A stretch of DNA of 35,003 nucleotides. Origin: Planctomycetota bacterium. Its GTDB lineage: Bacteria > Planctomycetota > Planctomycetia > Gemmatales > Gemmataceae. The position numbers and the translations under genes are program-made. A model generated the notes under the pieces. It had not been told where the DNA came from. It worked only from the letters and a program-made list of their open reading frames with translations, and did no database searches. Where the stretch lies: contig JACPPF010000028.1 of NCBI GenBank assembly GCA_016191165.1, forward strand, positions 1 through 35,003, in the 5' to 3' direction. Of this stretch, positions 3,001 to 34,773 are shown piece after piece (position 1 is the stretch's first letter; the number at the start of each line of letters is the position of its first letter).

Positions 3001-3547
3001 TCGCGGTTTCATAAATTTGGTAGTGGTCGTCAGCACCCGCGTAGTAAACGGCGTTGTTGAAGTCCGTGGCCAAATCGCGCGTCATTTCCGCGGCATTCAG
3101 GGCGTCAAAATAGACCTGATCCGCCTGCGACACCGCGGCCAGGTAGTCGGCGTAGTAGGGGTCGGTCACGGTCGGCGGCGGCGGTGGGGGAGGCGGCGGG
3201 TCGCCGTAGGTGATGTTGACGGTCGCCCAGGCTGTGTCGATGTTGTCTGTTACGGTGTAGGTGAAATTCTCCGCGACGGGGGAGGCGGGGTTGGGCGTGA
3301 AGACGAACGTGCCGTCAGGGTTCATCGTGACCGAGGAACCGCCCGGAAGCGTGAAGGGTTGGCCGATGGCGGCGGGGTTGCCGTTGACCGCGGACACGCT
3401 GAGTGGATTGCCAAGATCGTTGGCGAGAACGGTGGACGCCGTGAAACCAGCGCCGGCGGGGGCGGAGTAGAAATCGTCCGCTGCGGTGGCGGCAGGGGCG
3501 AGTCGCTCCTCCAGAACCTCAACGAGCAACCGCCGCGGCCGATTCAC
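1..3547 (-). CDS. Giant exported Ig-like/hendecad-repeat protein, 3' end outside window
   Basis: The minus-strand frame is open from 3547 to the window edge, about 1180 codons with no stop. The N-terminus reads NRPRRLLVEVLEERLAPAA, the planctomycete export/surface motif. Residues about 25-115 look like a cadherin/Ig-like (tandem-95 type) domain, ending in a run of prolines. Residues about 160-435 are Ala-rich and repeat every 11 residues with an aromatic at a fixed place (for example VDYDAASDAAL, SAYNAEVDAAN), as in hendecad coiled coils. A Gly/Pro linker and a helical region of no recognised family follow. The only usual start in frame is GTG at 3547, with no clear ribosome site. An ATG at 3579 with AGG seven bases upstream is one base out of frame across a run of eight G. 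A surface or cell-wall structural role is inferred; the exact function is unknown. Confidence 0.8.
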   Translation of the reverse strand, partial: MNRPRRLLVEVLEERLAPAATAADDFYSAPAGAGFTASTVLANDLGNPLSVSAVNGNPAAIGQPFTLPGGSSVTMNPDGTFVFTPNPASPVAENFTYTVTDNIDTAWATVNITYGDPPPPPPPPPTVTDPYYADYLAAVSQADQVYFDALNAAEMTRDLATDFNNAVYYAGADDHYQIYETAMAAAEQAYQFAHASVETVYDSATVQAQAALDVRMDAAETVYDAAMVIADDTWNQAKQSAAQAYDLARQTADGVYQTSLIPYQATRDTAQAYALQHPEDSAAQTAWANAEQDLANAEAQAATIRDADYANAQQVRDAAETQADVDYDAASDAALSAYNAEVDAANTNFESASAAAWDVYDPLEDAALAAYDQAEQNAWDAYQGDLLNLQSQWDAAESAADAALAQANTAAMDAWVAAEASAWDAYLFALSGMLAPTSPQARVTTPGAGAGTAPSEPNPGSGDPGDEPWGGDPLPGGGDWGGTFTPWNDPGPAVDNLFAPDANAGDWPGAPPAVQIDYWSWPGSPYFANTLAEAKYRAWLRRPAGAGNNTAVGAEVAAEFGVNATLTWVEFFTFAEWNALRASRTQTAASLDPALIARLDAEWRQSPAGTQDADSIGEEVAARWSRVPGFEWAAPDTGWYELYTYQAYVRLVALRSVDIPKVTANTWSTALDGDTFDFDGDDGAQRFYLQFTPYMNDPTQGDPYYRANHAHSDNPAQAAANRNSYADQVRSTLVPRLRYATTAELVNYLTRLTPPERSLLRVALDLEMARCSEQLASSSTSATLRRQATQSLAISQTVYSEMHYSGAAASYGLQTASRSFSDLVTNLTSDPQAMLGWEVYRGTFDQRVAFLADTNYETFVARERAAIDLSYGANPTIANIQQARQAALQAIPTALQYYVGRNMVLYTMTRYTGNTAQYLYPSVRNFIQSSNVKLGRRDFYSAARYVFDRYFRGGRAQTTPTYNSMASVEEFYTLDRFNLENMALPLVAGWRDASQSSREFFADTLHPLDRSALINSLYMAELTFTRIGSSSLATAAQQMREFLSDRFNGQMRVVDKTPDLQTIFRHASTRQRALTGFTAAQQQAFNQLPSSIRRLADSMSLDSFVAWRDANPVRVTYQPTFIWEFVDRSVLNTADLLSPVFRTAQRLAGRSVDEWGDTEAMRQIMSGNYNVRLGPTALNYGT

Positions 3548-3575
3548 GATGGGAGCGCGTCGCCCCCCCCGATAT

Positions 3576-3660
3576 ACATAAGTTTACCTATCCAGGAAAG
3601 TGGGCGAAGCATGGTGCGATTCCTTGCGTGGGAAGTGGCGCCGATTTTTCGAGTTGGATG
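3576..3660 (-). repeat. Leader repeat, copy A, upstream of the giant protein gene
   Basis: This 85-base stretch, read on the minus strand and ending in ATGT, aligns with 34483-34566 on the plus strand. About 40 of the first 50 bases match, and the run CTGGATAGGTAAACT is identical in both. It contains the AGG ribosome site and ATG at 3579, so it looks like a conserved 5' untranslated region plus start codon rather than a random match. Confidence 0.75.
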
Positions 3661-3661
3661 A

Positions 3662-3691
3662 AGTCTACCGATGGTGCGCGAGACTTGTCAA
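3662..3691 (-). promoter_or_regulatory. Sigma70-like promoter for the giant protein gene
   Basis: On the minus strand TTGACA (3691-3686) is followed after 18 bases by TAGACT (3667-3662). The -35 box is perfect and the -10 box matches TATAAT at four of six positions. It lies directly upstream of leader copy A, which fits transcription into the giant gene. Confidence 0.5.
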
Positions 3692-3718
3692 CAACGAAAC
3701 CGAATTTCATTCGCTCCT

Positions 3719-3893
3719 CATTTATTGGCACACCTCAATTTTTTCAATCACCCGCTTTATTGATGGGGTCCATGTTCGTATGTGATTTTTCAAGCCAAAT
3801 TCCGAGGATATTGACGAACTTCGCTCCTGATTCCGAAGCCCACCCCATCAATAAAGCGGGTGATTGAATTTTTTTGAGGCCTGGCAACAAATG
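3719..3893. repeat. Large inverted repeat with 27-bp perfect core arms
   Basis: The bases at 3743-3769 and 3842-3868 are perfect reverse complements over 27 bp, separated by 72 bases. Weaker symmetry (CATTT, TTG, CCTCAA) extends outward to about 3719 and 3893. Each arm also holds a small palindrome, CAAT..ATTG. The surroundings are clearly AT-richer than the rest of the window. It may be a MITE-like remnant or a large RNA/DNA hairpin. No transposase is nearby and no target duplication is evident. The rest of the gap between 3548 and 4129 holds no convincing gene. Confidence 0.75.
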
Positions 3894-34426: not shown

Positions 34427-34482
34427 GAGCCATCCGCGACCGTGCGAATGGAGGCATTGGCGACAGAGTAAGTTTGAGAGTT

Positions 34483-34566
34483 CATCCAGATCAAAAAATC
34501 GGCCGCACTTCTCAAACAAGCAATCGCACCAGCCTCAGCACCCTCTCTGGATAGGTAAACTCATGT
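34483..34566 (+). repeat. Leader repeat, copy B
   Basis: This 84-base stretch matches the leader of the giant protein gene at 3576-3660 (opposite strand), including CAATCGCACCA and CTGGATAGGTAAACT, and ends at the same place, an ATG (34563). The 52-codon frame that follows has no recognisable protein features, so what the leader serves here is unclear, possibly a decayed gene. Confidence 0.75.
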
Positions 34567-34773
34567 GCATGAGACGGTGTGCTAATACCAGGCCCGCGCG
34601 CAAGCGGAGCGGAATCTTGCATGCTCGACCATTGACCGCATGGTCGAACAGCAAGGAACTAGGCATCAATCGTCGGCCAACGCCACCGCGATTCAATCGG
34701 CCACGACCGCGGAGGTGCTGACGTGGCGAGCGAGTGAGCTGGGGCTGTTTACCGCCCGGCAGACGCACCCGGT

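Follow-up and report, generated by a model that had tools for sequence, protein, structure and literature searches.

Candidate poly-G phase variation of adhesin-type genes in a free-living planctomycete of the family Gemmataceae

Phase variation based on simple repeats has been described mainly in host-associated pathogens. The opa genes of Neisseria form a family of surface-protein genes in which each member carries its own repeat near the coding start, a pentamer in the signal-peptide region, and members switch independently. In Campylobacter jejuni, contingency genes are set on or off by runs of at least seven G that lie mostly within reading frames, and homologs that have no tract also occur (PMC6321876). 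The porA gene of Neisseria meningitidis carries its poly-G tract between the -35 and -10 promoter elements (PMC3639595).

The window, by which we mean the whole stretch of DNA that was analyzed (35,003 nt), is the entire contig C13 of a 7.23 Mb planctomycete genome assembled in 183 contigs. Its minus strand carries a large adhesin-type frame of 1182 codons that begins at GTG 3547 and extends to the end of the contig (2-3547) and whose open reading reaches upstream as far as a run of eight G at 3563-3570, read from the minus-strand sequence. A sequence-only reading of this DNA had pointed to this run and had calculated that one extra G would join a short leader frame to the large one; both the run and the frame arithmetic are correct. 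We consider it probable that the run is the frame-setting slippage site of a poly-G contingency (phase-variable) locus. The Campylobacter genes resemble those reported here in their runs of at least seven G and in the existence of tractless homologs, but they belong to another phylum and encode other proteins, whereas here a shared promoter-leader cassette is found in front of many different adhesin bodies. Like opa, the genes form a family with start-proximal repeats, although the repeat is mononucleotide G rather than a pentamer.

The leader frame (3544-3612, minus strand) starts at ATG 3612, reads MLRPLSWIGKLMYIGGGDALPS, and ends at TGA 3546-3544. Its start codon is preceded by the conserved ribosome site CAAGGAATCGCACC, in which AAGGA (3621-3625, minus strand, beginning at 3625) is nearly invariant across 14 aligned copies of the start region. 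Farther upstream lies a sigma-70-like promoter on the same strand, with the -35-like box TTGACA (3686-3691) separated by 18 nt from the -10-like box TAGACT (3662-3667), both recognized from the alignment of the 14 copies together with the window sequence. The sequence-only reading had taken ATG 3579 for a good start, correctly noting an AGG seven bases before it and a frame that ends after 11 codons at the same TGA. However, ATG 3612 lies 11 codons upstream of ATG 3579 and shares its frame. The codon at the 3579 position is GTG, ATT, ACT, or TTG in paralogs on contigs C33, C162, C45, and C183, respectively, and the upstream ATG is retained in most paralogs (it is CTG in C176a and lost in C18). 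Because the ribosome site and promoter belong to ATG 3612, and ATG 3579 is often not an ATG in paralogs, ATG 3612 is the likelier translation start.

Just upstream of this promoter, at window positions 3743-3868, is an element with 27-nt perfect inverted ends and 72 nt between them. It is flanked on both sides by AAAAAATT, C33 has the uninterrupted site, and a second copy of the element is present on C21 near 90.8 kb (L065). In sequence, it looks like a MITE.

Taken alone, the tract of the window was rejected as a signal, because it is the only run of eight G or eight C in the 35,003 nt and dinucleotide-shuffled windows hold a mean of 1.77 such runs. The signal that exceeds chance is that paralogs carry the tract again and again in the same position. 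When the DNA of the same genome was searched with window positions 3480-3700, the start region recurred at many other places. From the 14 strong copies that were aligned, a sequence-only model (R1) was built that covers the 67 positions before the tract. It has 19 matches in this genome at E ≤ 1, which include the 14 copies used to build it; the others are C176:24384 (E 1.4e-5), C107 (E 0.002), and three weak ones. Reading the contexts of tracts of at least nine G (79 overlapping matches, or 38 tracts by our count) added three diverged leaders, on C183, C46, and C86.

Most leader copies conserve the -35 and -10 boxes, the ribosome site, and the start codon, followed in most by some 14 codons that fit the type MxSPxSWIGKxMY. 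Three copies carry a three-base insertion that keeps the frame. Differences among the leader codons number 671, 328, and 434 at the first, second, and third positions, and a third-position excess is absent. In several copies (L038, L041, L143, L137) a repeated hairpin-like, REP-like stretch, GCTAATACCAGCC...GCGCAAGC, is situated between the tract and the LEDR motif, where it is coding (NTSPPRKRG). Some leader-like genes have no tract: those on C63 and C107 are in frame, that on C182 has no adhesin frame, and those on C18, C87, and C13 at 34477 are degenerate. The last of these, found by the DNA search and by R1, is a second leader copy within the window (34477-34569, plus strand) without either the ATG or the G tract.

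Tracts of 7 to 13 G are present in 15 leaders, all but one of which precede an adhesin-type frame; the exception, on C21, is not followed by one. These lengths, including the eight G of the window, agree with the 5' tracts of about 7-8 G or more that characterize poly-G phase-variable genes. Homologs of such genes also differ in tract length and frame state, as is found here. The leader is in frame with the body in four of the 14 genes: C138 (10 G), C168 (8 G), C140 (7 G), and C162 (10 G). It is out of frame in the other 10: the window (8 G), C33 (9 G), C20 (10 G), C1 (9 G), C23 (9 G), C45 (13 G), C176a (8 G, with the CTG start), C183 (9 G), C46 (9 G), and C86 (9 G). When two genus relatives, G004 and G006, are added, the in-frame share of 4/16, with each locus known at one tract length and each species at one genome, compares with an expected 1/3 at a binomial p of 0.60. 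This share matches the expectation for lengths that are random with respect to frame.

The shift needed to restore the frame also bears on a different role for the run. Tracts of G are candidate slippery sites, and programmed slippage of RNA polymerase or the ribosome would yield some full protein from every copy, with which the intact out-of-frame bodies are compatible. A programmed frameshift calls for a constant direction, whereas the copies need a shift in one direction in the window, C23, and G006, in the opposite direction in eight other copies of this genome and G004, and none in the four in-frame copies. We regard programmed slippage as highly improbable.

It is very unlikely that the G run is simply irrelevant and that ribosomes begin farther downstream, at GTG 3547, perhaps through re-initiation. 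That codon does overlap the leader stop as GTGA (3547-3544), and the same GTG occurs in G006. However, the sequence-only reading rightly saw no clear ribosome site for GTG 3547, and none is found nearby. In C33 the GTG is present, but the leader frame does not end at that codon. No in-frame ATG, GTG, or TTG occurs between the tract and the motif in five off copies (C20, C46, C86, C176a, and G004), and in the four in-frame copies reading continues from the leader into the body. The GTGA overlap could nevertheless permit low-level re-initiation in the present phase of the window.

The proteins behind the tracts share an N-terminal plan, with a LEDR-like motif followed mostly by Big_9 or cadherin-like domains. 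In the window, the motif EVLEERLAP (3494-3520, minus strand) starts the large protein and is followed by a Big_9 (bacterial Ig) domain at 3209-3493 on the same strand (Pfam E 7.4e-10, 40 bits against a cut-off of 23.6). Pfam matches across the adhesin-type bodies include Big_9, Cadherin_4, and Cadherin_5, and most bodies have Big_9, cadherin-like, or He_PIG domains (the window, C168, C1, C23, C162, C33, C86, C63, and G006); the stretches of C183 and C46 that were compared with Pfam matched no domain. Tails vary: C138 (L135) has an annexin domain and G006 (L142) a calpain-type protease domain, both toward the C-terminal ends. These domains suggest exported, adhesin-like proteins, and a surface location is presumed from the domains only. 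An LEDR-like N-terminal motif together with Big_9 or cadherin-like repeats is a feature of large planctomycete proteins. What sets the present genes apart from such proteins is the G tract between start codon and motif, although tractless LEDR-type members also exist (C63, C107, and, in a genus relative, G005:C100, which is in frame from a GTG).

A rival reading is decay, in which the out-of-frame copies would be pseudogenes that arose recently as the adhesin family expanded, and the degenerate copies C18, C87, and C13:34477 do exist. We compared dN/dS (Nei-Gojobori) in the 70-150 codons that immediately follow the motif, leaving out the out-of-frame copies C23, C46, and C86. Three pairs of out-of-frame copies among C20, C1, and C45 gave 0.15, 0.10, and 0.116, close to the 0.074-0.083 of pairs among three in-frame copies, and mixed pairs gave 0.065-0.163. 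Pairs with the degenerate C87 and C18 stand apart, at 0.22-0.68. The window and C33, both out of frame, gave 0.21 over the first 150 codons and are too diverged farther on, and C183 versus C176a gave 0.225. The compared out-of-frame bodies thus stay under purifying selection. With long open frames and values of 0.10-0.23 in the out-of-frame copies compared, the bodies are intact apart from the tract, as in poly-G phase-variable genes. Decay would require 10 of 14 copies to have died at the same tract with their bodies intact, and we judge it quite unlikely as the explanation of the out-of-frame state. A frame that is broken while its body remains constrained is consistent with an off state that is recent or can be reversed.

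Tracts are also found in a second gene family and in promoters. MauE-DUF1573 proteins have 14 matches in this genome, some of which are pieces of one gene. The neighboring paralogs L130 and L131 (C176:59973 and 62581) carry internal runs of nine G (out of frame) and 11 G (in frame) at the same site, and a gene of this family on C115 has 11 G and is out of frame. Three paralogous promoters, on C94, C60, and C26, carry runs of 8, 10, and 11 C directly after the TTG of a -35-like box, and the spacing from TTGCCC to TAGAAT or TAGACT is 15, 17, and 19, respectively. Two further loci read TTGCAA-19-TAATAT (C46:55459, 12 G) and TTGACA-18-TATACT (C114, 13 G, before a DUF1573 gene). The promoter-spacer loci before DUF1573 or MauE-DUF1573 genes, with spacers of 15-19 nt, are L120, L105, L113, L188, and L110. 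Promoter-like placement was seen for six of 69 tracts against 1.16 expected (sd 1.09, maximum 5, in 300 flank shuffles), with the reservations that three are paralogs of one another and that the one on C21 is an antisense match, probably due to chance.

The arrangement known from porA is thus matched at five loci (C60, C26, C94, C46:55459, and C114), the window locus excluded since its tract is coding. The genes concerned here are MauE-DUF1573 or DUF1573 membrane-type proteins, known from sequence. The MauE copies on C26 and C46 look frame-broken away from the tract, which suggests decay in part of this family. Together with the degenerate leader copies named above, these copies are a counterpoint to switching: decay is real in both families. 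Other repeats were encountered as well. Two similar stretches on C38 (L107 and L108) have runs of 11 and 10 G at a matching position, and L114 and L100 hold arrays of the tetranucleotide TCAC, another possible hypermutable repeat.

The sequence-only reading had offered a single-base assembly error as its alternative to phase variation. In the wider form of this explanation, the real tracts would be in frame and the assembly would have miscounted them; long G runs are error-prone, and the assembly is fragmented into 183 contigs. Yet tracts reach 13 G in length and both frame directions occur. A run of 11 G within a valyl-tRNA-synthetase-like frame (L128, C145:105675), by the anticodon-binding domain, is in frame, and of 59 unique tracts examined, those at 13 loci fall inside long frames (open for 90 codons or more on each side) that run on across them, although the same set holds five loci that are split candidates (one a leader, one antisense to the tRNA-synthetase frame), not all of them resolved. 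A similar pattern occurs in several other assemblies, and error would leave unexplained why the tracts sit in leaders and promoter spacers. Miscounting is possible at individual tracts, that of the window included, but as an explanation of the whole it is unlikely.

Among 41 genomes searched with the leader model under stricter filters, matches were obtained only in this genome, G001, and G006. The genus relatives G006 and G004 (the latter found by protein search) each have eight G and are out of frame, as is the tract copy of G005; no in-frame tract copy was seen among these three. A leader-plus-tract pattern run against GTDB contigs returned a single record, VGZI01000183.1 (Planctomycetota MAG 'K_Offshore_80m_m2_128'), which was dropped as an adhesin leader because its downstream frame has no LEDR motif.

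A wider pattern, consisting of eight G, 15-45 bases, and codons for LEDR, was found in 11 of 95 family genomes, compared with two of 95 for a control pattern (counted from the table). Nine of its 14 loci were opened (all except L256, L257, L260, L263, and L267). Seven fit, a start codon lying close ahead of the tract and the motif following it, and two did not; one of the seven, L258, has a short downstream frame. The seven are distributed over five genera including that of the window, and one is in frame and six are out. In G017, from another genus, three paralogs share the leader MRxTxRRIxDRGPKRAT, with 12 G in frame and 13 G and 8 G out of frame. Summed over this genome, G004, G006, and the seven fitting loci, the in-frame count is five of 23. 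That related arrangements precede LEDR-type proteins in four further genera of the family hints that a poly-G switching system may have arisen, or been retained, more than once.

Across the class, the wider pattern occurs in 45 of 397 genomes and the control, counted by eye, in 13 of 397. At the three places opened outside the family, a start-proximal tract before an LEDR motif was present in none, and the claim that the pattern extends beyond the family was dropped. Counts of nine-G runs per genome were likewise abandoned as a sign of a phasome, because they vary widely among 25 genomes and are inflated by G runs at contig ends. Fisher tests of frame state carry no weight here, since their 9-of-9 control set had been selected by inspection of the frames.

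The phase variation proposed by the sequence-only reading has thus gained support from the repeated leader with its varied tracts and frame states, the low dN/dS of the compared out-of-frame bodies, the same arrangement in relatives, and the promoter-spacer tracts. Transcription would begin from the conserved promoter, ATG 3612 would start translation, and slipped-strand mispairing during replication would alter the G count. With an in-frame sum, translation would pass through a short Gly-rich N-terminus to the LEDR-type motif and on into the surface protein with its Big_9/cadherin-like domains. With any other sum, the leader would stop soon after the tract and the gene would be off, as in this assembly. 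Slippage in living cells and the switch in expression are what we infer from these sequences. Because a similar 5' cassette precedes fourteen adhesin-type genes, the population would be a mixture of on and off combinations. With somewhat less confidence than for the locus itself, we favor the broader view that this free-living lineage runs a poly-G phasome, in which the common cassette and the spacer and internal tracts may give each cell a random subset of surface proteins.

A literature search that covered few subscription journals returned no paper that describes phase variation by repeats in planctomycetes. Poly-G phase variation in Planctomycetota is apparently unreported; the mechanism is known and the setting new. 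In such genes, automatic annotation will place the start wrongly or report a pseudogene. If switching of this kind also controls the adhesin repertoires of free-living planctomycetes, the selection for it exerted by phage attack, grazing, or attachment to surfaces may be as strong as that exerted by immunity. Aquatic bacteria would then have a simple genetic source of population heterogeneity, one that existing metagenome reads could test at once.
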